A stretch of DNA of 64,000 nucleotides. Source: Flavobacteriales bacterium. Lineage in GTDB: Bacteria > Bacteroidota > Bacteroidia > Flavobacteriales_D > Crocinitomicaceae. Both the position numbers and the translations under genes were made by a program. The notes below the pieces were generated by a model. It did no database searches. It was not told the origin of the DNA and saw only the letters and a list, made by a program, of their open reading frames with translations. This document shows, in pieces, positions 1 through 58,524 of the stretch. Position 1 is the first letter of the stretch. The number at the start of each line of letters is the position of its first letter. The stretch lies in contig JABXHO010000062.1 in assembly GCA_013373595.1 (NCBI GenBank), positions 1-64,000 on the forward strand, given 5' to 3'.

Positions 1-1
1 A

Positions 2-105
2 GTTTCAATCGAAGGTAATCTCGTAAGGTTCTAAACAGAAAATTCTTTTCTTGTGCTGCGTAATCCTAGGGTTTCAATCGAAGGTAATCTCGTAAGGTTC
101 TAAAC
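2..105 (-). CRISPR. CRISPR array 1, leader-proximal end (cut by the window start)
   Basis: Two identical 35-nt repeats (2-36 and 71-105) flank a 34-nt spacer (37-70). The array runs off the left edge of the window. On the minus strand each repeat ends in GATTGAAAC, the usual 3' end of type I/III repeats. That orientation, and the leader on the right, show that the array is transcribed leftwards, like the cas genes. The predicted 8-nt crRNA 5' tag is ATTGAAAC. The repeat differs from most of array 2 in its central and 5' part (minus strand starts GTTTAGAACC rather than GTTTGAAAGC) but matches the outermost repeat of array 2. Confidence 0.95.
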
Positions 106-215
106 CCATAACTTTGAACTTTTCCCTTTTTACGGGCGTTTTAGCGCATTTTTCAAAAAGCAATATGCCCATATTATGCATTTGGTCAAAAATTAGCAGC
201 TTTAGGAATCCAAGC
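106..215 (-). promoter_or_regulatory. CRISPR leader of array 1
   Basis: This 110-bp block directly abuts the first repeat. It recurs with the same length and roughly 85% identity beside array 2 (3326-3435). The most conserved part contains an AATATG-CC-CATATT inverted repeat (152-165) followed by ATGCATTTGGTCAAAAATTAG. Such a pair of conserved flanks is what one expects of leaders that carry the array promoter and the Cas1-Cas2 docking site. The exact promoter was not resolved. Confidence 0.85.
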
Positions 216-251
216 TTTTTTATCTGTTTCATTTAAAAATTAGCAGCGATT

Positions 252-542
252 TCAAACAATCAAAGAACGTTTCTTCCCTGAAAGATAATCAAAATCTGGT
301 TGAAAGTTGCCTATAATCTTCATTGCATAGAAACTCTCGGTTGAAATTCTCAAGTAGAAAATTTTATTATTCGGAGTTTCTTTCATCAAGGATGCAAGTT
401 TTGACCAAACATTATTTTCTTCAGGACTGAAGTGTCCAATGAATACAGAAAGCTGGATGCGTTCAAAACCTTCCCGTATTAACAGTTTCGCCACTCTGGT
501 ACGAAGGGACGTTTCTGTAATATCATAAATGATTAGATACAT
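252..542 (-). CDS. cas2: Cas2, CRISPR adaptation protein
   Basis: Cas2 is the dimeric core of the Cas1-Cas2 integrase that inserts new spacers next to the leader. The 96-aa length is normal for the family. The N-terminal beta strand reads YLIIYDIT, with the conserved Asp at residue 7, followed by RVAKLL and the ERIQLSVF strand typical of Cas2. It is the last gene of a leftward RT-cas1-cas2 operon. Its ATG (540-542) overlaps the end of cas1 by 20 nt, which points to translational coupling. The stop codon lies about 37 bp beyond the conserved leader of array 1. Identification is firm; no catalytic activity of its own need be assumed. Confidence 0.95.
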
Positions 543-1515
543 GGCGAGTACATTCGTGAATTTGCTTCTTTAAGTCTTCGACCTGCGCATACATATGTCT
601 TCTGATACTTCTTACTTTTCCAGCAAAGGAAATACGCCTATGCATATACTGATTGAAATGTTCAATGATCATTCTCTTCCCTTCTCTACTGAGCCAAAAA
701 CCATCTTTTACCGTTTTGAAATGATGGTCTTGTAAGCTTTCTTTGAGGCACAAATCGATCAATAAACGATCTATCAATGGGCGAAATACCTCAATACAGT
801 CGAATACCAAATTCTCTTTATGCGTTGTTGAGTGAAGTCCACCTACAAATGTGTCGAGTCCCGCAGCATGTATGGATCTGGTTATCTCACCGTATGTCAT
901 ACCATAAAGGTAATTGAGACTCGCGTTGAAGTAATCCTTACCCGGTCGACGACTTCGCCTTTCAAAACAATAAACCTCTGGTAGAATACAATTCACTGCA
1001 CGAAAGTACAGTCGGGCGATTCCACCTTCAATTCCCATGAGAGAGGAAGAAGAAATTGGTTGATGATTGTTGATGCTCTTAAGCGCTTCTTTTTTCATTT
1101 CGATAGACTCAAAAAGCTCCTTCCATTTGCTTTTCAATTTAGTCAACCTTGGCTCATGTAGCTCCAAGGTTTGTAATTGTAACTCTGTTTTCAGTACTAA
1201 CTGTTGAAGTACCCAATTTCGACCTTTTTCTGAGTGCATGAATTTCATCTGCGCATGACGTAAACGACTTTGCTGCAAATAAGATGGACCACTAAGTTGC
1301 GCGAGTAAATTACCCATTTGATCGAAGTACACAATCGGAATCTCACTTTTCGCCGCGAGTTTAATGGCTGCAGAATTAATCAACACATTTGTCAAAATTG
1401 CTATGGATGAGACACGCCGAGGACTTATCAAACGTTTTGTGGACTCATTGCTTATTAGAAATGTGCCATTTTTGACGCTCAGCTTTGTATGAATGGTATC
1501 GATATAGAGTTGCAT
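523..1515 (-). CDS. cas1: Cas1, CRISPR integrase
   Basis: Cas1 is the metal-dependent integrase that joins prespacers to the array. The 330-aa length fits the family. The N-terminal beta domain contains the usual IPIVYFD stretch near residue 60. The catalytic glutamate is visible in [11 protein letters not shown] (E163), the histidine in [12 protein letters not shown] (H228), and the acidic site in [11 protein letters not shown] (D239/E242). It starts 2 nt after the reverse transcriptase stop and overlaps cas2 by 20 nt, so the three are one transcription unit. It is not fused to the RT or to Cas6, unlike many type III Cas1 proteins that have an RT partner. Confidence 0.96.
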
Positions 1516-1517
1516 GA

Positions 1518-2567
1518 TCAGACGTAATTATTAAAGCTTGTCCAGCGAGCCACGAACCGTTCATCTGGTTCAAGGGCTTCATGAAACTGATCGAGATACC
1601 GAACGTACTCTTCACTGAATGTACCTTTGATCTGTTTAACAAAGTTGATTTTTCCCATCACTTCCTGCTTGAATCGTTTCAAGAAAGATAGACCGCTCGT
1701 CATTCCAGTAATTTGGTGTACCTCCACTACTTTTTTCAAACGCACCAAATCCTCATCTAAGGCGCAGTAAAAAGATGGGGCAATTTCAACAGAATTACCG
1801 ACTACTAAACCTGTGACAGTCTTCGGATCTTCAGGGCCATACAGTTTGTGCTTACCACTATTCAGTGGAAGATTAAAACCATCAAGAATTCCCGAGATAG
1901 ATTCAATGTGCCGACTATTCAGGTTTTTGGTGGAAGAAAAGGTGAGATCATCCACAAATCGCGTGTACGTAATGGACTGATTTTCGGACCATTTTTGGAG
2001 TTCAGTATCCGGCTCAATGGTGTAAAAGTTGGATAGTACTGGCGAAGTTGGAGCACCCATTGGCAATCTCCCTTTATATGTACACAATTTGGCTAGTGTC
2101 TTCGAAATGTACCGATCAAATCGAAAAGGATCGTTCTCAAAAATGAATTGAACCCTTTCCGTACTGATTTGATGGAAGAAATCATCCACATCGACATTAA
2201 TCAAATAGGAGCAATTCAGATGTTTTTGCGCGTTTGAAAGAATATTTCGCGGATTCTTTTCAGAAATTGCCCCGATTGTGAACCCATAACATGAAGGGGT
2301 TCTGACCACGAAATAGGCACATTGGAGGTAGTGATTCAGTTTACGCTGTAGCCGTTTTAGTTCATCTTCGGGTGCTTCAATGTAGCGCAGTTCACCGTTT
2401 GACTTTGGCATTGTGAAGTGAAAATAACCTGGATCGAAAGCGTGTAAGGAAATCGAGTTGAGTTCTGCTCCTATAAGTTGCTCGACATCTTTTAGTGTAG
2501 TGCACGAGAAAAGCATTTTTGCTTTTTTATAGATCTGCTTTCGAGTCAATTTTTGATTCAACTTCAT
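1518..2567 (-). CDS. CRISPR-associated reverse transcriptase with retron-type signatures
   Basis: A stand-alone 349-aa reverse transcriptase at the head of the adaptation operon. It probably allows RNA-derived spacers to be copied to DNA, as shown for other type III RT-Cas1 systems. Motifs in order: NAQKH (112-116), VDVDDFF (catalytic D126), LPMGAPTSP (168-176), FVDD (204-207) and VTGLVVGN (251-258). The NAxxH and VTG signatures are the classical marks of retron RTs, whereas most CRISPR RTs resemble group II intron enzymes. Cas1 begins 2 nt downstream. The ATG at 2567 is the first in frame after a TAG four codons upstream. The predicted -10 box ends only 6 bp before it, so the mRNA is leaderless or nearly so, and no msr/msd RNA can lie between promoter and gene. 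Confidence 0.9.
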   Translation of the reverse strand: MKLNQKLTRKQIYKKAKMLFSCTTLKDVEQLIGAELNSISLHAFDPGYFHFTMPKSNGELRYIEAPEDELKRLQRKLNHYLQCAYFVVRTPSCYGFTIGAISEKNPRNILSNAQKHLNCSYLINVDVDDFFHQISTERVQFIFENDPFRFDRYISKTLAKLCTYKGRLPMGAPTSPVLSNFYTIEPDTELQKWSENQSITYTRFVDDLTFSSTKNLNSRHIESISGILDGFNLPLNSGKHKLYGPEDPKTVTGLVVGNSVEIAPSFYCALDEDLVRLKKVVEVHQITGMTSGLSFLKRFKQEVMGKINFVKQIKGTFSEEYVRYLDQFHEALEPDERFVARWTSFNNYV

Positions 2568-2573
2568 TTTTCT

Positions 2574-2618
2574 AATCTAGGAAAGGAATCTGGTTGTGTC
2601 AACTGTGATTTTTCACAG
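2574..2618 (-). promoter_or_regulatory. Promoter and palindromic operator of the RT-cas1-cas2 operon
   Basis: Read on the minus strand: the palindrome CTGTGA-N4-TCACAG (2603-2618) directly followed by TTGACA (2597-2602), 17 bp, then TAGATT (2574-2579). The same arrangement occurs upstream of the effector operon (13483-13527). TGTGA-N4-TCACA resembles a CRP/FNR-family site. Its centre about 43 bp upstream of the predicted start fits an activator overlapping the -35 region. The regulator is not identified. Confidence 0.6.
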
Positions 2619-2643
2619 GTTTGAATTTAAATGAAGAGGCTCT

Positions 2644-2678
2644 TTACTAGTTGTAGGAGTAATCGTAAGCCACTAAAC
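2644..2678 (-). repeat. Degenerate terminal CRISPR repeat of array 2
   Basis: A 35-bp stretch that keeps TCGTAAG and the CTAAAC end of the repeat and sits exactly 33 bp left of the first clear repeat of array 2, which is a normal spacer length here. About half the positions match the intact repeat. Trailer-end repeats commonly decay, so this is probably the oldest repeat of the array. Confidence 0.4.
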
Positions 2679-2796
2679 TCTTATTTTTTATTCTAATCCT
2701 GTGCGAATTTGGTTTCAATCGAAGGTAATCTCGTAAGGTTCCAAACCCGTTTTCGTCGGCGTAAATGGAAGCGCCATGAGGTTTCAATCGAAGGTA

Positions 2797-2815
2797 CCCT
2801 TCGGCAGGCTCAGGG
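2797..2815. repeat. REP-like palindrome inside CRISPR repeat 2 of array 2
   Basis: Core CCCTTCGGCAGGCTCAGGG, part of an extra block of about 23 bp between GAAGGTA and TCTCGTAAGG of an array-1-type repeat. I recognise CCTGAGCNNGTCGAAGG as a short palindromic element dispersed in many environmental bacterial genomes; this is from memory and was not searched. Confidence 0.75.
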
Positions 2816-2957
2816 CGAGTTCTCGTAAGGTTTCAAACTCTCAAGCATCAAAGGCTGCAAGGATGGTGATTTCGTTTCAATCGAAGGATAATCGTAGTGC
2901 TTTCAAACTCTACAAGCGAAGCTGAAACAAAGTGCTCGCGAAGTTTCAATCGAAGAA

Positions 2958-2976
2958 CCCTTCGACAAGCTCAGGG
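2958..2976. repeat. REP-like palindrome inside CRISPR repeat 4 of array 2
   Basis: Core CCCTTCGACAAGCTCAGGG, inserted at the same site as the other three copies but in the second repeat variant. Sequence differences from the other cores argue against a very recent simple duplication of one interrupted repeat. Confidence 0.75.
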
Positions 2977-3052
2977 TAAATAATCGTAGTGCTTTCAAAC
3001 AAAATCATCATGCAATATGAGAATGATTTACGAAAAGTTTCAATCGAAGGAT

Positions 3053-3071
3053 CCCTTCGGCAGGCTCAGGG
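3053..3071. repeat. REP-like palindrome inside CRISPR repeat 5 of array 2
   Basis: Core CCCTTCGGCAGGCTCAGGG, identical to the core in repeat 2 although the surrounding repeat is the other variant. Same orientation and same insertion point. Confidence 0.75.
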
Positions 3072-3214
3072 TAAAAATCATAGTACTTCCAAACGAAATC
3101 TTGATTCTGAGGAAAAGAGAAATCTCTTTGTTTCAATCGAAGGATAATCGTAGTGCTTTCAAACTGTTTATTCACTTGTTTAGGACTGCTACAGGAAAGT
3201 TTCAATCGAAGAAT

Positions 3215-3233
3215 CCCTTCGACATGCTCAGGG
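3215..3233. repeat. REP-like palindrome inside CRISPR repeat 7 of array 2
   Basis: Core CCCTTCGACATGCTCAGGG. This is the interrupted copy closest to the leader. The leader-adjacent repeat 8, the one copied during spacer acquisition, has no insertion. Confidence 0.75.
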
Positions 3234-3325
3234 TATATAATCGTAGTGCTTCCAAACTATCGTTGGGATTATCGAACTTATTAAATATGGGTTTCAATCG
3301 AAGGATAATCGTAGTACTTCCAAAC

Positions 3326-3435
3326 CCATAACTTTCATCTTTCCCCATTTTACAGGCCTTTCAGCGCATTTTTCAACACGCAATATGCCCATATTATGCA
3401 TTTGGTCAAAAATTAGCAGTTTTAGGAATTCAAGC
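3326..3435 (-). promoter_or_regulatory. CRISPR leader of array 2
   Basis: The same 110-bp leader as at 106-215, directly abutting repeat 8, again with the AATATG-CC-CATATT inverted repeat and the ATGCATTTGGTCAAAAATTAG block. Two equally long and well-conserved leaders suggest that both arrays are, or recently were, active acquisition sites for one Cas1-Cas2 complex. The remaining bases to 3510 are not shared, apart from a short TCAAAGAACG close to each downstream gene end. Confidence 0.85.
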
Positions 3436-3510
3436 ATTTTTGTTCAGCTTTGAGGAGTGCTCGTTCCCATTTAATCAAAATTTCAAGATGTCAAAGAACG
3501 ATAGTGCACA

Positions 3511-4377
3511 TTAGCCAATCCGTCTAAAGACTCCATTTCCAAATGCAGCATTTTGTCCCAAAGAAAAAAGGTGTGGAAGCTGGTGCGGAATGCTGATCTG
3601 AATTCGGAAGGCGTACTTTTTTATTTCACGGTCTTTGATGAGTAAAGCGGGTCTGGTGCGTGTTTGAGGTGTGAGTTGCAAAATTCTCACGCTCTTTTTG
3701 ATGTCTTCGGTACTTACTTCGCCATTCGAGAAAACGGAACGCATGAAACTTCCCAAATTTCCCTGAATGCGATTGTCGAAATTGGCAATGACATTTTTTT
3801 CCTTGTCGTAATAGATTCCATTCTTGACGAAACAATCCCGATAAGGCAGCCAATTGGTGCTTTCGTAAATAAACGGCTTGCTACTTTCCCTGATCGAACA
3901 TCTTTCTACGCTTTCGATGCAATTATCCGTCCATTCGGGATGTACTTCACTTAATAGTTCTTGGTAAAAATCTAATGCCTGAACAGCGGTAGGTGTGTAC
4001 GCCCGAAGCGCGAAATTTCCATTTTGTTCGATCGCGTGAATGAGTGGCGGCTGCTTTTTGGAAGGAATACGATGAGCTACCTTTGAGTCGCTTTCGATCA
4101 TCAGTACTGACTGTTCGGTTCGACCACTTGGACCATTGATCAATGCGCCCGGCTCACTCTGTAAAGCGCCGTTTTCATTCACGACGAACGAGGTCGATTT
4201 GGTCAAACCTTTGTCCTTGTGAAAATACTCAGCAGTTGTTCCAGCCGCCAGAAACTGAGATTGTCGGTTCAATGCGAATTCATGCACTTCTCGTTGAAGG
4301 TGCTTCAGAAATAAATACCTTGACTTGATCGGTAAATTGAGGTAGTGGATGGTTTTTATGTGGAGTGATGGATTCAT
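3511..4377 (-). CDS. cas6: Cas6 (Cas6b-like) pre-crRNA endoribonuclease
   Basis: Cas6 cuts the array transcript within each repeat and leaves the 8-nt tag on the crRNA. This 288-aa protein is the last gene of the cmr operon, 3 nt after cmr6. It ends in LGQNAAFGNGVFRRIG, a shortened form of the glycine-rich loop that closes RAMP proteins. NWLPYRD near the middle, followed by IQGNLGSFMRSVF, resembles the WLPF and GNILSFAKG segments of Bacteroidetes Cas6b proteins as I remember them. The stop codon lies close to the leader of array 2. The catalytic residue is not obvious. A further Cmr-type RAMP is the alternative, but all six Cmr subunits are already accounted for. Confidence 0.65.
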   Translation of the reverse strand: MNPSLHIKTIHYLNLPIKSRYLFLKHLQREVHEFALNRQSQFLAAGTTAEYFHKDKGLTKSTSFVVNENGALQSEPGALINGPSGRTEQSVLMIESDSKVAHRIPSKKQPPLIHAIEQNGNFALRAYTPTAVQALDFYQELLSEVHPEWTDNCIESVERCSIRESSKPFIYESTNWLPYRDCFVKNGIYYDKEKNVIANFDNRIQGNLGSFMRSVFSNGEVSTEDIKKSVRILQLTPQTRTRPALLIKDREIKKYAFRIQISIPHQLPHLFSLGQNAAFGNGVFRRIG

Positions 4378-4380
4378 AAT

Positions 4381-5520
4381 CTATTGAAATTCTATAAAGT
4401 TTTTAAAAAAGATGCGCTTGTCATCACCAATTCTGTTCACGAAACAATACACGATCGCGTCCTCTTCCATTGCTTTAAGCGCTCGTGTGTTACCACCTTT
4501 GCTAATCTTGACTGATGGAAAGGGCTTCCCGAGTTGTTTCAAAAATTCTGTATAACCTTTGACTTCTGGAATAAGATAAATCTGATACTTATCTTCGTTT
4601 TCTCGGTATATCGCCTTTTCAATCTTGCAATTGACTCGATCTTTCAATGAGAGCGACTCGAGATTAGGTAAGTGTGAATCCAGCTCCTCCAACTGTCCAT
4701 ATCCCACATTTGTTTTCGCTCCAACGCCGAAATCTTTCAAAATGGCTAAAAACAAGTTGGTTTTGTGTGCACGTAGAAATGTCATCGTGACTTGATCCGC
4801 AGTGATGGAAGAATCCGATAGTCGGAACGCAAAGTGATAACTCACTTGTGGCAAAACTTTCAAAAATTGAACAGGATTGGGCGATTTGAGCGGGGAATCG
4901 TGGGGGGTGATGTAATCATTTCCCAAAAAGAGTCCCTTGCGGTGTCCGGTTGCAACGGGGAAAGCATCCAGAAAAATGTCTCGTTCGTAGACGCAACGTT
5001 CGCCGTCGTGTTCAAACAGCGTTTGCTCCAAGGCGTCGACAATGCTTCGTTTTTGTCCGGTATTCAGCGCTGTCCAGGTAGCATCTTCTTTACAAATTTC
5101 ATCGAGCAACTCAACAATGTACCCCGTTTCAAATTCAAACGCGCTGCGAATGGCACCTTTTACAGAAGAACCAGGAATCACGGGAAGACCAGTTGTGTAA
5201 TCGAAATGGAAACCCAATTTCAATTCATTTTGAACGTAGGCATCGCCGTTATCGTCTTTCTCTCCTGATAAAATCTCGTGTTGATAGCCCGATCCGATCA
5301 ATAGACCCGGGTAAACGGTTTGCAACTCGATGGATTCATTTTGAAGCTGATCTGTATACCTCTTAGCCACTTCTCCGTCCGAAGTCGACCACTTTTGAGC
5401 GAATAATTGCTCGTTTTTCTCCGTTCCATCAAACACAGCAATGTGCTTGCCCCCTTTCCATAGGAAGTTGAGGTCAGCGTAGTAATCCTGATAAAACGCG
5501 TATCCAATATTTGTATTCAT
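4381..5520 (-). CDS. cmr6: Cmr6, RAMP subunit of the type III-B effector
   Basis: Cmr6 caps the Cmr4/Cmr5 filament near the 3' end of the crRNA. The 379-aa protein shows the family landmarks in order: LPVIPGSSVKGAIRSA (about 120-135), the internal FLDAFP segment, DYITPHDSPLKSPNPVQF, and the C-terminal glycine-rich loop FGVGAKTNVGYGQLEE. Its ATG overlaps the cmr5 stop by 4 nt and cas6 follows after 3 nt, so it lies inside one polycistronic unit. It is longer than many Cmr6 proteins because about 100 residues follow the glycine-rich loop; their role is not apparent. Confidence 0.93.
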   Translation of the reverse strand: MNTNIGYAFYQDYYADLNFLWKGGKHIAVFDGTEKNEQLFAQKWSTSDGEVAKRYTDQLQNESIELQTVYPGLLIGSGYQHEILSGEKDDNGDAYVQNELKLGFHFDYTTGLPVIPGSSVKGAIRSAFEFETGYIVELLDEICKEDATWTALNTGQKRSIVDALEQTLFEHDGERCVYERDIFLDAFPVATGHRKGLFLGNDYITPHDSPLKSPNPVQFLKVLPQVSYHFAFRLSDSSITADQVTMTFLRAHKTNLFLAILKDFGVGAKTNVGYGQLEELDSHLPNLESLSLKDRVNCKIEKAIYRENEDKYQIYLIPEVKGYTEFLKQLGKPFPSVKISKGGNTRALKAMEEDAIVYCFVNRIGDDKRIFFKNFIEFQ

Positions 5521-6005
5521 GCTTCTGATTTTTTGAGGTCAAATGTGCGGAGTGCCAATTTGAGGGCGTACAACGCATCCTGTATTTCTTCGGCGAGCAG
5601 GTACAGTTTGTCGCGATTGAGATCATTCATCGAGATGGTTTGTCCCTGATTGTAGTTATCCACGCAGTACTGCAGCGCATGCTTCATGAGCGTTTCGTCT
5701 GCTTGGATTTCAGTATTGTCACCATTCGTTTTTTTGAGCACTGTCAAAATGGCCCTGAGCAATAAATTGGTATCTTCGGCTTTGCGCATTTCTTCGCTAC
5801 TTCCATTTTCGTCGGTTCGACTGGCGCGTGTGTAGAAGGTGATCGTAGTGAGTAGTCCCGTGCGCATAATACTTGCCGCCATACTCACGATGTAGCCTTT
5901 GTATTCTGACGGAACACTGCGATCATTTTTCATCATTCCTGATGTTTCAATGGCGCCCATGGCCACTGGAATCATTTGATTGATTTTCTCACTCATTTTC
6001 CTCAA
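5517..6005 (-). CDS. cmr5: Cmr5, small subunit of the type III-B effector
   Basis: Cmr5 is the small all-helical subunit that lines the inner side of the crRNA-target duplex. The 162-aa product is predicted almost wholly alpha-helical. It has the Cmr5-like pattern SEYKGYIVSMAASIMRTGLL near residues 33-52 and a C-terminal LYALKLALRTF helix. The first ATG overlaps cmr4 by 17 nt; a second at codon 4 (5996) would overlap it by 8 nt and is equally plausible. The position between cmr4 and cmr6 is the usual one. Sequence conservation in this family is weak, so context carries part of the assignment. Confidence 0.88.
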   Translation of the reverse strand: MRKMSEKINQMIPVAMGAIETSGMMKNDRSVPSEYKGYIVSMAASIMRTGLLTTITFYTRASRTDENGSSEEMRKAEDTNLLLRAILTVLKKTNGDNTEIQADETLMKHALQYCVDNYNQGQTISMNDLNRDKLYLLAEEIQDALYALKLALRTFDLKKSEA

Positions 6006-6789
6006 TTTTTTTGATGTTCACATATCCCATTCCAACGCTCGCATTGGCGCCAACTTGAACTAATTCACTTTGAATGACCTTATCAAATTCTTCTTGGTAG
6101 TTTCCTTCTTTGTTGATGAAGAAAATGAAGCGTGTTTCTCTTGGTACCACTTCTTCGTACCACAAGTTTTCGCTGATGCCCTTGTTTAGTTTGTTACGGG
6201 CAACTACAGGAAGTTTTTGGGTCAATTGCTTGAATTGATCATGCTTGAACAACGCTATATTTTCACCGATGTAGTTATTTGTTTCTAAAGAATCATTAAT
6301 ACTTGCATTGAAGTCATCGATTTTGACATTGTCACCACTTTTTATGAGAGGTCGATCACCTTCATGGGTATAGCTCGGGAGCGACAATTCACACCCTAGC
6401 AGCTTACTTTTCGCTCTAATTTCCTCGACAACGAACGGACTGATCGCTCGAAAAAACGGCTGTTTGTTGCTCGGAGCAGGTAAGGAGAGAAGATCGGCAT
6501 TGAAAAAGTTGAAATGACCAATTCCTGGTGTGTCTTTTTTGTTTCGAGCGGTATCAGGACCGAAAATGTGGTTGATGCGTGCGTTTTTATCGTCCTCATC
6601 TTTCCATTTAAAGTCACAGAATTGGCGCAATGCTCCTTTTAAACTCGATGCGTTGATGGTGGGCATTTTGGAAATGCTATCTCGCTGAACGAGGTTGTCG
6701 ATTACGCCAAAGTTTGCGTCTCCGCTTCCTGCATGAAGGTTTGTGATGCAGGTCAATAAATAAGCGCTGGTATTATTGTTTGTTTTCAT
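5989..6789 (-). CDS. cmr4: Cmr4, backbone subunit and target-RNA nuclease
   Basis: Cmr4 forms the filament along the crRNA and cleaves the bound target RNA at 6-nt intervals. The 266-aa protein shows the RAMP start LHAGSGDANFGVIDNLVQRD (19-37). D31 lies where family members carry the catalytic aspartate, so RNA cutting is likely retained. ASSLKGALRQF near 47-57 and NASVGMGYV close to the C terminus are the other expected RAMP elements. The gene overlaps cmr3 by 17 nt upstream and cmr5 by 17 nt downstream. Confidence 0.94.
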   Translation of the reverse strand: MKTNNNTSAYLLTCITNLHAGSGDANFGVIDNLVQRDSISKMPTINASSLKGALRQFCDFKWKDEDDKNARINHIFGPDTARNKKDTPGIGHFNFFNADLLSLPAPSNKQPFFRAISPFVVEEIRAKSKLLGCELSLPSYTHEGDRPLIKSGDNVKIDDFNASINDSLETNNYIGENIALFKHDQFKQLTQKLPVVARNKLNKGISENLWYEEVVPRETRFIFFINKEGNYQEEFDKVIQSELVQVGANASVGMGYVNIKKIEENE

Positions 6790-7909
6790 GATTGTTTCGT
6801 TTGGTGATTACTTTAATTTGATTGTAGCCGAGGTCTTGAAAGTTTTGGAAGCTGTCTTTTTTAAAGAGGTTTTCCAGTTGCTTGGTATCGTTTGTATAGA
6901 AAACACTGCCTTTCTTATACAGGGTGAACTTCTCACTTTTGGTGACCTTCTTTGCGTAGGTTTTTAGAGAACGATCCATATCCGCGTAGTTCTCGGTTGT
7001 ATCTACTGACGTTTTTAAGAAGCGGAAATCAACGGTGTCGGTGATGGCGAAGTCACAGAATTTGAGTGGGTCTTCCTCTCCGACGTATGCATCTGAAACC
7101 AGAACTACTTTGTCGCTGTTGCGAGATGGATGAAAGTCTGGAATCAAATCCTTAAACTCTTCCTCAAAGGGTGAACATTCCATTGTAAATGTACATTGCT
7201 CAGCACCCAAAACCACTTTCGGCTGATTGAGGATCTCGTGGTTCACGGATGCGTCCAATTCCAGTACAAAAGCGAAGGAATACTGACGATCCGCACTATT
7301 TTGAAAGCGCTTAAAAAACTGAATGTAATAGGCATTATCCTCGGTTTCTCCTTTGTAGTTTTTGCGAATGCCTGTTTGCTGGCGATCTGCGAAAATCTTG
7401 TCGGGCTCGACCAGTTCACTTGATTGTTGACTCTGGTAAAAGGTATTTAGTCCAAACTTCGCAGAATATTTTTCCAAATGAAAGAACTGTTCGTTGGGTG
7501 TTTCCATTCGCCCAATTTCAAGAAACTCTGTTTCCTCCTTTTTTTCGTTGATTTGGTATTCATTGTTCGCGTGAAATAAGTAGTCAACTTCTCCTTGTTG
7601 ATTTCGTGCAATAAAAACAGGAGAAAGCGATTTGATCTTCCCGAATTCAAAGGTATTTCCTACTTCAAAACTATTCGGACCAATGAGTGTGGAAACATCA
7701 GCATTTTTCGAAGAAATAATACGGTTTTTCTCCATATTGAAACAATCACTATTTCGAAGCAACTGATAGCGAATTAAGCCTAAAAGTGCTGTTTGCTGCG
7801 GAAAATCATTGGATTTCACCAAGTAATTAGCCTTATCTCCAAAAGTCCGTTCACCACCAAAGAAGAAGTAGCTGTGAGGCGTGAGTTTTATCAAATATTT
7901 TTGGGTCAT
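6773..7909 (-). CDS. cmr3: Cmr3, RAMP subunit that binds the crRNA 5' tag
   Basis: Cmr3 joins Cas10 (Cmr2) and anchors the 8-nt tag of the crRNA. I place the start at the ATG of 7907-7909 (378 aa). It leaves one base after the cmr2 stop and begins MTQKYLIKLTPHSYFFFGGE, matching the LxxxDxxFFRDGRPF opening of the family. Extending to an ATG at 7996 would add 29 residues overlapping cmr2 with no recognisable content. QQTALLGLIRYQLLR (codons 40-54) and the C-terminal NYQ-like basic tail are as expected. It is part of the unbroken cmr operon. Confidence 0.88.
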   Translation of the reverse strand: MTQKYLIKLTPHSYFFFGGERTFGDKANYLVKSNDFPQQTALLGLIRYQLLRNSDCFNMEKNRIISSKNADVSTLIGPNSFEVGNTFEFGKIKSLSPVFIARNQQGEVDYLFHANNEYQINEKKEETEFLEIGRMETPNEQFFHLEKYSAKFGLNTFYQSQQSSELVEPDKIFADRQQTGIRKNYKGETEDNAYYIQFFKRFQNSADRQYSFAFVLELDASVNHEILNQPKVVLGAEQCTFTMECSPFEEEFKDLIPDFHPSRNSDKVVLVSDAYVGEEDPLKFCDFAITDTVDFRFLKTSVDTTENYADMDRSLKTYAKKVTKSEKFTLYKKGSVFYTNDTKQLENLFKKDSFQNFQDLGYNQIKVITKRNNHENKQ

Positions 7910-7910
7910 A

Positions 7911-9689
7911 TCAATTGTCTTTGTTGTGAATAAATGAGATGAATTTGAGCATCCCGCTGATCGTTTGCCAATTCTCGAGGTTATGGTTTTGCGCATCTTC
8001 TTGCTTCGAATCTAACTCGGAAGGAATCGGTGACTCGCTGTAAACAGCTTGAAATACGGCTTTTAAATGTCGAAGGAAAGGAATGAGTTGTTTGTTTTCT
8101 CCAGAACCTGTAGTATGGACAGATTCGTTGAAGTTCTCTTTGAAAAAATGATCCCATTTTGAATTTCGCAGCTCTTCATTTGAAACTCCGCCTGTTGTGC
8201 TTTTAGTGCTGCCGATTCCATAGAAGGTTCCGATATTTTTTTCCAGTGTGGGCATCAATGAATTGATGTAATTCGAATCGTTCACCACTGAATGACTGAG
8301 TTTTCGGAAAGCCTGGTATATTTTTCCCGTTGGATGTTTGCGAAGGTTCAAGGTGAATTGATCTCCGCTGTGTCCTCTGAATTCGAGGACGACTCTGTTC
8401 TTAAGCGGGGATTGTTTCGGTGTTTTCTTCGCGATGTCCGCCAATGCTTTATGACTGAGTTCTTTCGCTTCCGCCAACGGAAACTTGTAGTAAGAGATCG
8501 CGATTCCGTAGGACATGCTAACGGGTGTTTCTTCAATGATGGGACCGAATACAGGATCATGCGTGAAGTACTGGTCAAAAACCGCGTCGATAGCTTCGAT
8601 CAAGTCGAAAATGGTTTCTTGCTGGGTAAGTTTGCCCGCTTCATCAAACGTCGAGTAAGCCACAGAGGAGAAAAACAGCAAGTCATCACCACCAGCATAT
8701 ACGGCATGACCTCTTAATTTCAGAGGAAAGGAAATTTCACCTTCTTTGTCAGTACCTTTTTCGCGATTTCCTCCATTGATTAGAATGGTAGCGGCCCGAC
8801 TAAATTGCAAGGTGTTTTTTGAGAAACGATCCATGCGTTTTTCACCGTTTGCTAGTGGCTTCTTTCGGTCGCGCTCTGCTAATGTCTTAATGAAATTACC
8901 GAACCCGTCTCCATCTGCCTCTACAATTGCGTAGTGCTTCAAGTATTTGCGGTATCTGCTGTGTTTCGATCGCTCCAGTTCCGCGCGAACAGTTCTATAA
9001 AATTCGAGTTGTCCATCGACATTTTCGTCTTGCAAATACTTTTCCACTGCGGAAGCATAGAAAGACTCTTTCTTGGTTCTCAATTCTTCCGTAGCGATTT
9101 CTGCTGTGCTCGGAAAGTTCCGATACTGAAAAGCTTTTCTGTGTAAATAATTGTATTTGGAACCAGCTTTACCCTTTTCTGGTCGCATTTCCAGAAAATT
9201 CTGGAGGTAAGTTTCATTCCCGAGTGGGTTAATGCGATTGGTGAGTTCTGCCGTATCAATGAGTGGGGAAATGGAGTGAATAATTGAATCTTCCAATGTG
9301 TCTTCGTCGAGTTCTATTCCTGAAATCACATGCAGATTGAAGTAAGATTTGCAATACTCACGCACTTGGTTTTGATCGACTTTCAGATCGCGAGCCATTG
9401 CATCAGCGAGTTCCTGAACGACCGTATCGAAAACTCCATGGACATCAGGAGTTCCTTCAACGATGAATTGATCGTGAAACAGCCCAGTGACGGGGTAGTG
9501 ATCGTTACTTAAATCGTCCTCATCGAAATACGGCACAACGAACTGCTCAACGGGTAAGTTGAGTTCACGAAGCATGTTTTTCATAATGTATGAAAACAGA
9601 TAGCTCACTGCCCAGAATGCTTTGGTGCTTTTGGCTTGCAGAACTGTTGGGTAGATGGGACCGATTGATATGGCTGTGTATTTCATCAT
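7911..9689 (-). CDS. cmr2: Cas10/Cmr2, cyclase subunit without HD nuclease domain
   Basis: Cas10 detects target RNA binding and makes a nucleotide second messenger with its Palm domains. The 592-aa protein begins directly with ISIGPIYPTVLQAKSTKAFW, the start of the first Palm domain. The first Palm metal site is HYAIVEADGDGFG (D259/D261). The second carries an intact GGDD (333-336) in GHAVYAGGDDLLFF. The N-terminal HD nuclease found in many Cas10 proteins is absent and the length fits that absence, so collateral ssDNA cutting is unlikely and signalling is the likely output. The neighbouring DHH-CorA gene suggests that the messenger is SAM-AMP rather than cyclic oligoadenylate. That is an inference from known CorA-type III-B systems such as that of Bacteroides fragilis. 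Confidence 0.95.
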   Translation of the reverse strand: MMKYTAISIGPIYPTVLQAKSTKAFWAVSYLFSYIMKNMLRELNLPVEQFVVPYFDEDDLSNDHYPVTGLFHDQFIVEGTPDVHGVFDTVVQELADAMARDLKVDQNQVREYCKSYFNLHVISGIELDEDTLEDSIIHSISPLIDTAELTNRINPLGNETYLQNFLEMRPEKGKAGSKYNYLHRKAFQYRNFPSTAEIATEELRTKKESFYASAVEKYLQDENVDGQLEFYRTVRAELERSKHSRYRKYLKHYAIVEADGDGFGNFIKTLAERDRKKPLANGEKRMDRFSKNTLQFSRAATILINGGNREKGTDKEGEISFPLKLRGHAVYAGGDDLLFFSSVAYSTFDEAGKLTQQETIFDLIEAIDAVFDQYFTHDPVFGPIIEETPVSMSYGIAISYYKFPLAEAKELSHKALADIAKKTPKQSPLKNRVVLEFRGHSGDQFTLNLRKHPTGKIYQAFRKLSHSVVNDSNYINSLMPTLEKNIGTFYGIGSTKSTTGGVSNEELRNSKWDHFFKENFNESVHTTGSGENKQLIPFLRHLKAVFQAVYSESPIPSELDSKQEDAQNHNLENWQTISGMLKFISFIHNKDN

Positions 9690-10936
9690 GAAACTTGATT
9701 TATGGTTCTATCAATTGCTGATAATATTTGGTATTCAATTGTTCTTTCTTGATTTGGGATGTTTTTTCCGAGTCGACTGCTTAATTCGGGTAATCTACTG
9801 AAATAGAAGTTCCAGAAATCTTTCCATGAAAAACTGTCAGGAAGAGTTAATTGAAGGCCACTACTATTCCCCATCTCAATATCAAAACGAGCACCTAAGA
9901 AGTCAGAATCTATTGGTGTACATTTGATTCCAACTTTATATTTTCCATTCCCTAAGTTGAATGGTTTGAATAATACTGGGGACGTGAATCGGTCTATCTC
10001 AGAATTACTTTTCTTGACCTCACTTGAATAGGAGCGCCAAGATTCTTTTGAGCTTAAGCCGAACAGGTCTTTTATCAAGACTTTTGTTGGTTGATCATCG
10101 GAAAAAGCAAGTATATCTGAATTGTTGTGTTCTATTTTTTGCTTATTCAAATCACGAGGAAAGTAGTATTCTTTAATTGATTTCTTGTCCCATTGCTGAT
10201 TCAATTCAAGCATTGAGAAGTAGAAAATAGCAGGTTTTATGTAAAACTTTGAAACCCCACCTCTTCCTTTCCGATTAATACCGCTTCTGAGACTTTTGTA
10301 GAAAATATCTAGCGCCCCGAAAAGATCTAATTCCAAACTCCAATTTTCACTTGAAATGGAATTGTTGTTGGTCCAAGGAGCATTCCTGATCCGAGTTGTA
10401 TCCAACTCGAAAGTTACGTCGAAATGGGTACTCTGGAATTCATCTGTTTGCAATAAGAAAGAGCCGAATCCTTTTGATTGACGGGAACCGAAATTGTGCA
10501 ACCACAAGAACCCAGAGATGTGCTTACTTATAGCGTTCCGTAGCTTTTCATTTCGGGCGTAGAACTCTAGTGTTATTTCATGCTCAGCTTTACTGAGATA
10601 CTTTAGGGATTTTTTGTACTCGTCTCCCATATTTGCAAAGAATGTGGGGAGCTTGTCAACGTCACGTTTGATCTCGTCGCTCGTAACTTTTCCTGCATTT
10701 ATCTTCACTCGATAATTCAATGCTAAATGATCTTTACTGATAAACCAGCTTTCAAACCCGCTCTTTGGAACTTGTTTTTCATTGCGAACCTCAGTTAACT
10801 CTTCTTGTTCTATGATGAATCGATCCAATTTTGGTTTCAGTTCAGTGGCGCGCAAGGTTGCCCCATGCTGATCACCTTGAAAGTGGATCATTGGGGTGTG
10901 CTGTTTTAGTTGGAATGTTAGTTTGTATGTGTTCAT
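9686..10936 (-). CDS. cmr1: Cmr1, RAMP subunit of the type III-B effector
   Basis: Cmr1 sits at the 3' end of the crRNA and aids capture of the target RNA. The N terminus shows QHTPMIHFQGDQHGATLRATEL (split here as HTPMIHF and GATLRATELKPKLDRF, 13-42), the counterpart of the TPMFGG and LRPPSIKGALRFW regions of the family. FWLHNFGSRQSKGFGSF (about 147-163) is the glycine-rich GGLGSRxxxGFGS loop typical of Cmr1. The 416-aa length is usual. It overlaps the CorA fusion gene and cmr2 by 4 nt each, so it is translated within the same message. Confidence 0.87.
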   Translation of the reverse strand: MNTYKLTFQLKQHTPMIHFQGDQHGATLRATELKPKLDRFIIEQEELTEVRNEKQVPKSGFESWFISKDHLALNYRVKINAGKVTSDEIKRDVDKLPTFFANMGDEYKKSLKYLSKAEHEITLEFYARNEKLRNAISKHISGFLWLHNFGSRQSKGFGSFLLQTDEFQSTHFDVTFELDTTRIRNAPWTNNNSISSENWSLELDLFGALDIFYKSLRSGINRKGRGGVSKFYIKPAIFYFSMLELNQQWDKKSIKEYYFPRDLNKQKIEHNNSDILAFSDDQPTKVLIKDLFGLSSKESWRSYSSEVKKSNSEIDRFTSPVLFKPFNLGNGKYKVGIKCTPIDSDFLGARFDIEMGNSSGLQLTLPDSFSWKDFWNFYFSRLPELSSRLGKNIPNQERTIEYQILSAIDRTINQVS

Positions 10937-13434
10937 TTCTTGATCTTTTTGAATTTTTTTCTTCTAAGTATTAACTTCACTATCCAACGCACGAGTAGAA
11001 ATAGTAAGCCTGGCACTACAGCTGCAATGGCACTATAAACTAGAGGCATATTCGGCGTTTCTGTAATCTTCCACGCAAGTGGAGGAAACGTATTCATTCC
11101 TGCAATTCCTGCGATTAATGTTGGGATCAAAAATGCGGTTGCAATAATCGTTAAGCGATGTCCATCCTTTGCCAATTTCTCTTGTTCTTTGGCACTTCTG
11201 CGGCTATTTTCCATTTCCACAAAAGCATTGAGTTCCCGAATTTCCTCGTCCAAATTTTTCACCTCCTGAGGTAGGCGCATGCTCTTTTGAATCATGTCAT
11301 ACAATTCTATGCCCTGTTCTTGTGTAGTTACTTCCCTGAAATAGATGCGGTTCACAAAAAAGATGTACCGTCGATAAAGTTCAGTAATGCGATCACTCAG
11401 ACTATTCGTATGAGCCGTGTCATGATCCTTGTGGTATGTTAAAACTTTTTGCGCTAGAAGAGCCGTTTCATCGGAGAACTGAAGGATGGTTGCTCGTTGT
11501 AAGAGACACAACTCTACCATTTTATAATACATACTTTGTAAATGTCGAACCAAATAGTTGAAATTTCCTAAGTCCGAAAAATTCTTTGTAAGCATCACAA
11601 AACTGTACCTCGACACTCCGTACAATGTGCCGTATTCTATAAAACGGGAGTAAGTCTTTGCTTCTAATTGAGTGTGGCGAATGAAACGGTTGGTTTGCAT
11701 CACTCCAGTATCAACGAAAACGTAATTTTGCCAAAAATCAGCTGTTTCGAAAGCGTAAAATGGTTGGTCGGTTTTGCGGTCATTACTGTAATCACGTTTA
11801 ATTACTTTCAACTCATTCACAGTTTTGGTGTGTCCAAACCAGGAAATAACGTGCATTCGATCATCTAAAACGTGTGAAATGGTTATTGAATCTTTGGACG
11901 ACTTTTGATCGGCAATGAAATCCTTGGGAAATAAGTTCTTGATGAAGCTTGGAAGAATGAACGGGTTCTTTTGGTAGTTTTCTTTCTCCCTGTATGAGGA
12001 AAAATCATCACATAAGATCCTGTTGTCAATATTGAGCCAAATAGCATCGGGTATTTCACCAAGTTTTGTGCCCTTTAAAATATCGTGTTCGTTATCTTCC
12101 CCAGATTGATCGGGAACTCCTGAATAGATCGAAACGGGTTTCAGATCAAAAAATGGCACCGCTACACGACGTCCATACATGTTAATATTGAGAATATCTT
12201 CAGGGTTGCTGTATTCATGATTGCGCAAGTGAAAAGACAATACCGCCGTTCCCATTTTGTATACGTTCAGAATAATGGTGTCGATGGCTAGGGAGTATTC
12301 GATTTGCTTACCGTCATTTCCCTCTTTTTTTAGTCGAACATTGTACGTGGAGTCAGTATTGATTTTGTACTCAAAATGTCGCATAAACTGACTGACGGAT
12401 TCATTGGCAACCAACGATTCTTCTTTTTCGTACAACATTTCGCGAACGTGCTCATAGAAGTAATTGTATTCATTGAAACGATCAAGTCCTTCTAAATTAA
12501 ACTTGCTCGATTCCCACTTACCTGAACATAGAGAATTAAAATGACTCAAGTCAAAAAACGACTCATCATCATTTACTCGCCATTTAAACGGAAACAGGAA
12601 GATGTGGTGACTGTAGATTTCCTCTTTGAGAGTTGTCTCTTTTTCTTCCTCCTGAGATTTCTCTTCTGTAAGCAATTCAATAATTTCATCTCTTGCAGAT
12701 AGAATTTCTTCCTCAGACCATTGTCCGTTAATTAATCCAATATATCCACTCGTTCCGCCTCCCAGATATACACGTTCACTCTCCAATTCTTCTTGAAACA
12801 GGTTTGCCACCTTGTCACGATTCTTTCCGAAGTATGTAAGCTCATTTTCCGTGTAAATAATGTGTTGTTTTGAATGACCAAAAAGGCGATCTGTAATTGG
12901 ACTAAACTTATCATTGAAGGCCCGGATCAATTTTAAACCACCGTAGGATGTGCAATTCTCACGAATGGCTTTTTCGGCTAATTTCTCATCTTGTTCGCTT
13001 ACTCCCTGAGCTTTTCTGTCAAGTCGTCGAATTTTCTCAATTTCCTCCTTGGAAGCACCTAGTTTCTGCATAGCGGGGATGTAGCCAGTATCGTTGGCGG
13101 CAATTAACTGTCGTCTCCATGTGAATGATTCTGGAATTTCCAATAAATCAATGAGCTGTTCTAACGCAGAATTTCTACCTTCTAGTTCGCCGTGATGATC
13201 TATATCTATAGAGTTTTGGGGTCGAGAATCTTTGTCTTGAAGTTCGATCCCTACGAAGATTTTATTTCTGTCTTCAGGGAATTCATAAAGATCCTGATAA
13301 GCTTCCCAACTTGCATTTCCCCATGTCAAGTTTCTGTCTTCAAACGAGAGCTTTCTACGTTTCAAGATGCGTTTGATTTCCGTCATTTCGAGATCGGAAC
13401 CTCCCAGTAAAAATATGTAGTTGTTTTTACCCAT
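10933..13434 (-). CDS. DHH phosphodiesterase-CorA fusion, predicted SAM-AMP-gated membrane effector
   Basis: First gene of the effector operon, 833 aa. The N-terminal part (about 1-260) has the DHH phosphodiesterase signature IDIDHHG (D79-H80-H81), a further acidic motif AANDTG (D115) and a glycine-rich YLGGGTSGYIG that fits a DHHA1-type end. The middle (about 270-750) is soluble and ends in a long helical region. The last 75 residues hold two membrane segments with the CorA GMN motif (779-781) between them and a basic tail RRKKFKKIKK. In published type III-B CorA systems a CorA channel and a separate DHH enzyme (NrN) respond to and degrade SAM-AMP made by Cas10. Here effector and putative off-switch are one polypeptide. 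The function is inferred; the domain order is seen directly. Confidence 0.85.
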   Translation of the reverse strand: MGKNNYIFLLGGSDLEMTEIKRILKRRKLSFEDRNLTWGNASWEAYQDLYEFPEDRNKIFVGIELQDKDSRPQNSIDIDHHGELEGRNSALEQLIDLLEIPESFTWRRQLIAANDTGYIPAMQKLGASKEEIEKIRRLDRKAQGVSEQDEKLAEKAIRENCTSYGGLKLIRAFNDKFSPITDRLFGHSKQHIIYTENELTYFGKNRDKVANLFQEELESERVYLGGGTSGYIGLINGQWSEEEILSARDEIIELLTEEKSQEEEKETTLKEEIYSHHIFLFPFKWRVNDDESFFDLSHFNSLCSGKWESSKFNLEGLDRFNEYNYFYEHVREMLYEKEESLVANESVSQFMRHFEYKINTDSTYNVRLKKEGNDGKQIEYSLAIDTIILNVYKMGTAVLSFHLRNHEYSNPEDILNINMYGRRVAVPFFDLKPVSIYSGVPDQSGEDNEHDILKGTKLGEIPDAIWLNIDNRILCDDFSSYREKENYQKNPFILPSFIKNLFPKDFIADQKSSKDSITISHVLDDRMHVISWFGHTKTVNELKVIKRDYSNDRKTDQPFYAFETADFWQNYVFVDTGVMQTNRFIRHTQLEAKTYSRFIEYGTLYGVSRYSFVMLTKNFSDLGNFNYLVRHLQSMYYKMVELCLLQRATILQFSDETALLAQKVLTYHKDHDTAHTNSLSDRITELYRRYIFFVNRIYFREVTTQEQGIELYDMIQKSMRLPQEVKNLDEEIRELNAFVEMENSRRSAKEQEKLAKDGHRLTIIATAFLIPTLIAGIAGMNTFPPLAWKITETPNMPLVYSAIAAVVPGLLFLLVRWIVKLILRRKKFKKIKK

Positions 13435-13664: not shown

Positions 13665-15212
13665 ATGAGTTTTCAAAAATCCATTAAAGAAAAAGCGATG
13701 CTTGCCTCAGCTAGACATTGTTGCGTATGTAATAGATATAAAGGAGTGAAAATGGAGGTTCATCACATTCAACAATTAGCTGATGGTGGATCGAACACTT
13801 TTGAGAATGCAATTCCTTTATGTTTTGACTGTCACTCAGATGCTGGACATTATAATGACAAGCACTCAAAAGGAACGAAATTCTCCCCTTCTGAATTGAA
13901 GAAAGCACGCAGCCAATGGTACGAAAAGGTAGCAAAAGACTCTATACCAGTAAAATTGGCAATATCCGACCATGTTCAAACAAGTTATTTCGTTCTACAC
14001 AGCTTCAGTATTCTTGAAGATATTCTTGAGGGTGATTATTCTTCGATGAAGCATTATCGGAAAAACACATATTTGAAACGCAACAAGATGATGGATTATT
14101 GGCAATCTTTGATGTTGGCCAATCGCAAAAACGGTAGGTGGTTAGGAGAGCAAGTAACTTCAGTAAAAAGAAGCTATTACGATTCCATTGAAGAATATCA
14201 AGCAACCCATGAAGATTTCAACATTATTGATAAATCTGAAGGTGATTACCCATATTTTGATGCACAACGAAAGATTACTTGGGATAATTTATTCACTGGA
14301 TATGAAAACAATGAATTCATGAAGTTACTTCGTTATTCAGGATTAGAGGCTCATGAATTATTCACAGGGCTTTTATACAAAAATAATGGAGGTTGTGGAG
14401 AATATATCCCCCAAAAAGGATACACCGAATATATGGAGATCGCTCCCATAAGTTTTGTCTTTTTAGGGATTACGAATGCTTCAAAAGAGGCGATCAGGCT
14501 TGATAAACTTGCTTCAGAAGAAGAACTTATCGAGTTACCAAATTTCGCTGTTTCACCTAACGAAATGATTCTAGTACCAATTGGAGCTGGGATAAATCTA
14601 AACCCCAAATTAGAGGAGAAGGATTCGCTTATATATCACAACTATGATGCTAGAATAGACTACGCAAAGGTGATCGGAGATTCAGGTGGAAAGATGAAGA
14701 ATGTCATGTTTTTCAAGGATATGCTGAAACCTCAACATGTCATTTACAATGACAATGACACAGAATACGAGGTTCAGATTCATGAATTTGATCACGAGAA
14801 CATGTACACCTTGACCAACAATTGGGGAATAGGATCGTGTCCACATCTGTTCTATGTAAAGGAAAATGGTAAACAAGAATACTCGCGAGAACTGCTTCGA
14901 CAGGCTTCAAATGAGCTTGGTTCAGATTCATTTGTAATACCAGAAGGAATCTACCTAATAATAATTCGTGAGCTCGAAGACGAAGTAACGTATCTCGATA
15001 AAATTCTCATAAACAACGAACTTTGCTTTTCTGATATCGTTATGAATAAAGGAGACTCTTTAGAAATAAATGTTCAACCATTTGACACCGTAGAATTGCA
15101 CGGAAGTTATGTCCCAGACTATAAAAACGAATCAGGATTTAATAACATGTGGCTGAGAAATGAATTGGTGAAAAATTCGAACTTTAACTATAATTCGAAT
15201 ATTCCTAAGTAA
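13665..15212 (+). CDS. HNH endonuclease-domain protein of unknown role, defence-island neighbour
   Basis: A 515-aa protein. Residues 18-60 form a zinc-stabilised HNH nuclease: HCCVCNRYKG (C19, C22), EVHHIQQLADGGSN (H33-H34), then NAIPLCFDCHSDAGH (C53, C56, H57). The remaining 430 residues are not recognised. They contain no membrane segment, and the C-terminal third looks beta-rich. An HNH domain followed by a long recognition or sensor part suits a restriction-like or phage-triggered nuclease. It is transcribed away from the cmr operon, ends about 115 bp before the large helicase, and may be the first gene of that plus-strand unit. The ATG at 13665 is the first in frame and puts the HNH domain at the usual distance from the N terminus. 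Confidence 0.75.
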   Translation: MSFQKSIKEKAMLASARHCCVCNRYKGVKMEVHHIQQLADGGSNTFENAIPLCFDCHSDAGHYNDKHSKGTKFSPSELKKARSQWYEKVAKDSIPVKLAISDHVQTSYFVLHSFSILEDILEGDYSSMKHYRKNTYLKRNKMMDYWQSLMLANRKNGRWLGEQVTSVKRSYYDSIEEYQATHEDFNIIDKSEGDYPYFDAQRKITWDNLFTGYENNEFMKLLRYSGLEAHELFTGLLYKNNGGCGEYIPQKGYTEYMEIAPISFVFLGITNASKEAIRLDKLASEEELIELPNFAVSPNEMILVPIGAGINLNPKLEEKDSLIYHNYDARIDYAKVIGDSGGKMKNVMFFKDMLKPQHVIYNDNDTEYEVQIHEFDHENMYTLTNNWGIGSCPHLFYVKENGKQEYSRELLRQASNELGSDSFVIPEGIYLIIIRELEDEVTYLDKILINNELCFSDIVMNKGDSLEINVQPFDTVELHGSYVPDYKNESGFNNMWLRNELVKNSNFNYNSNIPK

Positions 15213-15326
15213 ATCAATTTATAGGAAATTATCGATGTCCTTATTCACATTAAAGATTTATCTTTATTGGATCAACCGCTACTAAGAATCGCAGAAAAAC
15301 TGGTAACGTGTTTTAACTTTAGTTTA

Positions 15327-58359: not shown

Positions 58360-58524
58360 GTTGTAAATAACGGTTAGTTGTAGGGTTGTTACGCTTTAAG
58401 TTTTAATTTGAAGCGCAGGAGTAACAACAGTTAAACTTAAAGAAAATTATTTTATTGCACAAGTAGCCATTTTTAACTTTTTTTGGTTTCAATCCAATCC
58501 ATCTAAAAAGTTTATCTTTACCAC

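Follow-up and report, generated by a model that had tools for sequence, protein, structure and literature searches.

The locus described here raises the question of how a reverse transcriptase (RT) with the features of a retron enzyme has come to head the adaptation genes of a CRISPR system, and what it does there. The locus lies in a stretch of 64,000 nt from a Flavobacteriales bacterium (contig JABXHO010000062.1), which is referred to below as the window. According to a passage of PMC11014452, which cites Toro et al. (2019), CRISPR RTs have arisen at least three times and one small clade of them is related to retrons. The RT of Haliscomenobacter hydrossis is mentioned as retron-like in passages of PMC5541045 and PMC6013744, and a passage of PMC8934634 cites it to illustrate that retron RTs occur with CRISPR. 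Because retron-like CRISPR RTs are already in print as a minor lineage, the window RT adds a member to a known kind, and an earlier note on this DNA was right in guessing that its clade is known but rare. Recruitment of RTs into CRISPR adaptation is known mainly from the group II branch; the present material brings together the recruit and its closest retron kin, whose RNA is intact, and permits a direct comparison that shows the apparent loss of this RNA.

The genes of the locus are transcribed from the minus strand in the order DHH-CorA fusion, cmr1, cmr2/cas10, cmr3, cmr4, cmr5, cmr6, cas6-like gene, CRISPR array 2, RT, cas1, cas2, and CRISPR array 1. The RT gene (1518..2567), identified by its open reading frame (ORF), profiles, motifs, and tree, encodes 349 aa and is the first gene of RT-cas1-cas2; cas1 (523..1515; 330 aa; Pfam Cas1, E 5e-61) starts 2 nt past it, and cas2 (252..542; 96 aa; Pfam Cas2, E 6e-11) overlaps cas1. 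RT and Cas1 are separate ORFs, with no fusion between them. Array 2 (2712..3325) consists of 8 repeats, of which 4 measure 35 nt and the other 4, enlarged by an internal insert, 58-59 nt, and its putative leader occupies 3326..3441; array 1 (1..105) has its putative leader at 106..221. Positions 3318-3441 (124 nt) share 90% identity with 98-221, a related leader being found upstream of each array. Array 1 is cut, because window position 1 is the first base of the contig, and the rest of it is probably to be found in contig C178, which belongs to the window's genome and opens in the same repeats. Between array 2 and the RT is a gap of 144 nt (2568..2711) in which a promoter-like site and a palindrome, and no msr-msd, have been found.

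Upstream of array 2, the cas6-like gene (3511..4377) matches Cas6b_C at E 0.013, which is under the Pfam cut-off, as is the match of its homolog at L001:7096-7902 (E 8e-5). Profile matches identify cmr6 (4381..5520), cmr5 (5517..6005), cmr4 (5989..6789), cmr3 (6773..7996 as the longest ORF), cmr2/cas10 (7911..9689), and cmr1 (9686..10936). The true start of cmr3 is probably nearer 7900, because its profile match begins only at residue 33-36. The presence of cmr1-6 with cas10/cmr2, together with the arrays, makes this a type III-B system. The first gene of the order (10933..13434) encodes a DHH (NrN-like)-CorA fusion, in which a DIDHH motif is recognizable by eye and the CorA matches (E 4e-4 and 7e-6) are both under the curated cut-offs; it is likely the membrane effector of the III-B system. 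NrN and CorA, as neighbours or fused, are described in a passage of PMC10600005 as a mark of type III-B systems that signal with SAM-AMP, and by analogy the window system may do so as well.

The earlier note had assigned the RT to the retron type on the motifs NAQKH, VDVDDFF, LPMGAPTSP, FVDD, and VTGLVVGN, and had placed it first in RT-cas1-cas2, 2 nt before cas1. All of these motifs are read in the 349-aa ORF (1518-2567, minus strand), where the catalytic site is intact, and the gene order is confirmed by the ORFs and by Pfam (RVT_1, Cas1, Cas2). With NAxxH and VTG both present, the protein has the signatures of a retron-type RT. It matches Pfam RVT_1 at E 2e-18, its best RT profile in PADLOC is RT-Protease_XI (E 2.5e-66), and its match among solved structures is retron Ec86 (2e-27); in NCBIfam it scores 178 bits against retron Ec67 (model cut-off 450) vs. 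47 bits against group II, both under their own cut-offs. A structure prediction from a two-row alignment gave a pLDDT of 41 and was set aside, and the window RT used as a query against viral contigs found no relatives. The promoter which the note had placed about 6 bp before the ATG stands in part: a promoter-like TTGACA-17-TAGATT is present at 2602-2574, ending 6 nt before the RT ATG, but it is a sequence match only, because the scan called 7 promoter-like sites vs. 2.5 in shuffles and sigma-70-type promoters may not be the kind that this host uses. A perfect palindrome, CTGTGA-TTTT-TCACAG (2603-2618), lies immediately before the -35-like hexamer; it is operator-like, and the scan calls it terminator-like on the plus strand.

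The association of this RT with adaptation genes extends well beyond the window. In a Bacteroidales MAG (L001), whose RT is 50% identical, the genes cmr1-6, cas6, RT, cas1, and cas2 are ordered as in the window. The best plasmid match is pHALHY02 of H. hydrossis (L017), whose RT is ~33% identical to the window RT, begins 3 nt past cas6b, and is divergent from cas1-cas2. At 14194-15903 of this locus CRISPR arrays lie on both sides of the module, with the RT 3 nt past cas6b, an arrangement unlike a random retron insertion. A Cas1 search of 395 genomes of the class, 16 of which matched (the window's own genome among them), has turned up L033/L049, the third locus with RT-cas1-cas2, as well as L051, in which cas1 is followed by a truncated RT, and L052, in which the contig edge leaves the C-terminal 79 residues of an RT ahead of cas1 (E 2e-25 against the L085 RT). 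The L049 RT as a query was above the cut-off in 2 of 22 genomes (L049 itself and L082) and in 15 of 149 genomes; of these 15 matches, six adjoin cas1 and seven are preceded by a DnaB-like gene, L076 lies at a contig edge, and L081 has neither of these genes. Within the window's own order RT matches occur in 25 of 349 genomes, own included, and no cas genes were matched in the 14 loci read among the 25 non-own matches.

In the complete CRISPR-linked loci, which number 11, the RT is followed by a co-directional cas1 in all but L017, and cas2 comes directly after cas1 in 8, further on in L083, and before the RT in L084. The RT-cas1 module is spread over five families and the Bacteroidales MAG, and it occurs with both Cmr (L001, L017, L085-L088) and Csm (L083, L051) effectors. 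The Cas1 tree (30 rows) shares with the RT trees the groups window + L001, L049 + L083 + L084, and L087 + L088, and the conserved gene order and this tree indicate a stable link of the RT with adaptation genes. The Cas1s of L051, L082, and L017 group with Cas1s from RT-less loci, that of L017 on a very long branch. For the pair L087/L088, dN/dS is 0.074 for RT, 0.061 for Cas1, and 0.067 for Cas6, and the RT is under purifying selection in this one pair; L083/L084 are saturated. In L051, the ORF that follows cas1 (10114-10602) is Cas2-like by eye over its first ~20 residues and is for the rest the C-terminal half of an RT, a broken adaptation module.

The phylogenetic position of these RTs was examined in a first tree of 58 rows and 341 columns, which comprised 11 CRISPR-linked, 21 DnaB-linked (see below), 16 other retron, and 10 group II-type RTs; the partial RTs of L051 and L052 and the fragment L106 were left out of the RT trees. 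Five of the group II-type rows are above the NCBIfam cut-off, four are labelled by similarity, and one is an RT-Cas1 fusion (L115). The 11 complete CRISPR-linked RTs, H. hydrossis included, form one clade with support of 99/100 (98/100 in a second tree without the group II rows), and the 10 group II-type rows, with the fusion L115 among them, form a clade of their own (100/100). The window RT thus belongs to the clade of the H. hydrossis CRISPR RT and stands apart from the RT-Cas1 fusion. Within the CRISPR clade, the pair window + L001 has support of 85/50 in the first tree and 100/100 in the second, and the H. hydrossis RT is a long branch. In the tree without group II rows, the CRISPR- and DnaB-linked RTs (33 rows) are separated from 15 other retrons at 100/99; the 33 include L092, a sequence at a contig edge that was labelled as other in the first tree and groups with the DnaB-linked RTs.

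Joining the CRISPR RTs with the RT-Cas1 fusion L115 is rejected (AU p 1.7e-6, one fusion sampled), and a CRISPR RT of group II type is ruled out against that fusion. The phylogeny that the earlier note had proposed as a check, with retrons and group II-type rows, has accordingly not placed the RT beside the RT-Cas1 fusion sampled, and its claim of a retron RT with an origin distinct from that of the fusions is supported by the retron profiles, which match best, and by the separate clade. A topology in which a single branch sets the CRISPR and group II-type rows together apart from the rest is only 0.44 log units worse and is not rejected (AU p 0.49), and the first tree gives 97/99 for nesting in retrons. 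With this alternative at p 0.49, the CRISPR RTs could branch beside all of the sampled retrons, and their retron affinity therefore rests on similarity, motifs, and the grouping with DnaB-linked RTs; that they are nested inside retrons rather than beside all of them is less certain. In terms of motifs, NAxxH is found in 9/11 CRISPR, 21/21 DnaB-linked, 13/16 other retron, and 0/10 group II-type rows, VTG in 9/11, 21/21, 14/16, and 0/10, respectively, and [YF]xDD in all 11 CRISPR rows.

The nearest kin of the CRISPR RTs are retrons in which the RT is immediately preceded by a gene for a DnaB-like helicase, with an msr-msd in the interval between them (L018-L031, L073-L075, and L077-L080; larger stretches L089-L091 and L093-L096). 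A DnaB-like gene is upstream of the RT in all 14 loci read from the window's family, and the same arrangement accounts for 7/15 matches of the L049 RT. Between the helicase and RT genes lies an msr-msd-like RNA that is flanked by complementary arms (typically AGCCGTTG / CAACGGCT) and has a conserved TTATG[AC]GTC stretch and stem-loops; these RNAs are 160-181 nt long. All six genomes of DnaB retrons checked also encode a full-length DnaB, to which the retron helicase is additional. Rfam at E <=1 gave no match on eleven DnaB-retron loci (among 16 sources), three of the helicases had no match among the PADLOC retron effectors, only mad8 appearing weakly, and our literature search found no relevant paper on DnaB-linked retrons, which are perhaps an undescribed retron type.

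A covariance model built from 14 DnaB retrons found the RNA in place in 7/7 held-out DnaB retrons, at 1e-23 or better in four near the training rows and at 6e-4 to 0.013 in three distant ones. In 13 CRISPR sources it found nothing below E 0.38 and nothing upstream of an RT, the matches at E <=5 being L083:7551-7583 (0.38) and 7503-7537 (4.5), L086:4390-4550 (1.2), window 58459-58577 (2.6), and L001:9311-9442 (3.0, antisense within cas1). The model excludes only a DnaB-type RNA, because it found no RNA upstream of the RT in 15 non-DnaB retron sources and because spurious matches in L092 (0.0025 at 4968-5009, and 0.041; length 42 nt, distant from the RT) rival the distant true ones; another spurious match is in L102 (3.5). 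A second, wider test looked for complementary arms of >=9 bp with a separation of 80-260 nt, in a region that began 400 nt before the RT and reached 60 nt into it. Such arms are present in 18/21 DnaB retrons and 10/15 other retrons and in 0/11 CRISPR RTs (shuffles 4.6, 4.6, and 1.9, respectively); an earlier, smaller version gave 0/11 for CRISPR RTs and 5/6 for controls. Rfam on window 1-4500 gave nothing above threshold, the best match being an RT-2 RNA with 14.2 bits vs. a threshold of 40. The distance from the RT to the preceding gene or repeat is <=100 nt in 8/11 loci (that of L083 measured to a worn last repeat chosen by eye), short of the 160-181 nt of the sister RNAs, and 144, 159, and 222 nt in the window, L085, and L086. 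The claim of the earlier note that the RT has lost its own RNA therefore agrees with Rfam, the DnaB-type model, the arms test, and the gap, none of which revealed an msr-msd beside the window RT, the model and the arms test likewise revealing none beside its relatives. The simplest reading is that the msr-msd would have been lost in the CRISPR branch.

The CRISPR RTs also have a distinctive end. The pattern W-x-x-[FMC]-x-[YN] closes 9/11 of them and the L052 fragment (RWTSFNNYV in the window) and is missing in L082 and L017; it is found in none of 48 other RTs (0/21 DnaB-linked, 0/17 other retron with L106 counted, and 0/10 group II-type). Because the pattern was picked after seeing the alignment and the rows are related, this tail is to be regarded as a shared trait of the clade and not as an independent test. 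We regard the tail as a candidate docking site for Cas1, whose gene comes next in 10/11 loci, and this clade-specific feature suggests a way, simple enough to be tested, in which an RT that is not fused might join Cas1-Cas2.

On these results, we consider it likely that the window RT is a CRISPR adaptation RT which came from the retron branch (DnaB-linked or close to it), lost its msr-msd, is inherited with cas1, and most likely copies RNA for Cas1-Cas2. A DnaB-linked retron (RT with msr-msd), or a close relative of one, would have been the source from which a type III adaptation module took the RT; the recruit would have lost the msr-msd, if the change ran in this direction, with its catalytic site kept, and would since have been inherited with cas1 and usually cas2. 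The RT would most likely copy RNA fragments into cDNA for insertion by Cas1-Cas2 into the flanking arrays, doing as a separate protein, in trans, what the fused RT of an RT-Cas1 protein does in cis, and cDNA made from RNA would suit a type III effector that reads transcripts. What we observe directly is a retron-type sequence, a single CRISPR clade, a conserved gene order, no detectable msr-msd, and, in one pair, purifying selection. A fuller version, tentative and in our view rather doubtful, is that of one domestication in which a DnaB-type retron RT lost its msr-msd, gained the W-x-x-[FMC]-x-[YN] tail for docking on Cas1-Cas2 (a non-covalent counterpart of RT-Cas1), and keeps NAxxH and VTG because it would now be reading another structured RNA, perhaps the CRISPR transcript. 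This transcript is suggested because the RT is directly preceded by an array in four loci (window, L049, L083, and L085).

Three other explanations have been weighed against recruitment from a retron for the copying of RNA. The RT may serve Cas1-Cas2 without acting on RNA prey, by filling or extending DNA prespacers or by copying the system's own RNA. Retron RTs are specialized for a structured RNA, and NAxxH and VTG are largely kept here though no msr-msd was found; no RNA-derived spacer was found among the spacers searched, which also speaks for this explanation. We nevertheless judge it unlikely, as RT-Cas1 fusions take spacers from RNA (passage in PMC11014452) and type III effectors act on transcripts. 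That the RT is still that of a working retron, with an msr-msd that is diverged, located elsewhere, or supplied in trans, would also account for the retained NAxxH and VTG, and it gains from the facts that the model knows only DnaB-type RNAs and that L086 has room upstream; against it, the sister-RNA model found nothing in the 13 CRISPR sources, arms are present in 0/11 CRISPR upstream regions vs. 28/36 of retrons, Rfam has no match above threshold in window 1-4500, and the upstream gap is too small in most loci, so that this explanation appears very improbable.

The remaining explanation is that of a passenger, a retron that chanced beside cas genes. A passage of PMC5541045 suggests that the H. 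hydrossis RT is possibly a recent insertion, and of 349 genomes searched in the window's order, 24 besides its own have related RTs. This printed view does not fit our results, because the 11 CRISPR RTs form one clade with a conserved gene order; they come from several families, the H. hydrossis RT starts 3 nt past cas6, and no msr-msd was found. The conserved module and the purifying selection in L087/L088 disfavour a passenger so strongly that we give it hardly any credence.

The recruited RT can thus be set against the systems nearest to it. With the H. hydrossis RT and the lineage of Toro et al. (2019) it has in common its retron type, its place next to the cas1/cas2 genes of a type III system, and, for H. 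hydrossis, the clade; it differs from the H. hydrossis RT, to which it is about 33% identical, in being co-directional with cas1. Like the group II intron-derived CRISPR RTs and RT-Cas1 fusions, it belongs to a type III adaptation module by cas1/cas2, but it is on another branch, is unfused, and has NAxxH and VTG. It is of the same RT sequence family as the RT-Protease, RT-TIR, and RT-Toprim retrons, from which it differs in having no fused effector domain and no msr-msd that we could find. The DnaB-linked retrons (L018-L031, L089-L091, L093-L096) are the nearest RT kin of the CRISPR RTs (100/99 together), but carry an msr-msd and a DnaB-like gene, and the loci read gave no match to a cas gene. 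The DnaB-linked sister, the RNA loss by direct comparison, and the tail have no mention in the available text of the literature searched, which excludes the 2019 survey and the retron classification, and we do not claim that they are absent from print. Retron-type RTs may prime unlike group II-type RTs, a difference that matters for RNA-recording tools.

Of the spacer origin analysis that the earlier note had proposed, the comparisons with viral contigs and phage records were carried out, and no source was found for the spacers searched. Five of the eight window spacers, as exact cores of 26-28 nt in 5 scans, had 0 matches in viral contigs, and among array stretches compared with phage records window array 2 had no match at E 0.1 and those of L087, L017, and L051 had none at 0.01. 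The repeats themselves show an unusual feature. In array 2 (2712-3325) and at 1-412 of L119 (contig C178), they occur in 35-nt and 58-59-nt forms, the long ones with CCCTTCGRCANGCTCAGGG in mid-repeat. Long and short repeats alternate along the array, so simple repeat duplication fails as an explanation. In the window's own genome the CCCTTCGRCANGCTCAGGG element turned up in CRISPR repeats alone (6 sites, one mismatch allowed), and in relatives it is dispersed, with a match in 13/60 genomes, own included. Another RT-linked array (L052, 3195-3546) has four long repeats which carry a different, palindrome-rich insert of ~24 nt in mid-repeat.
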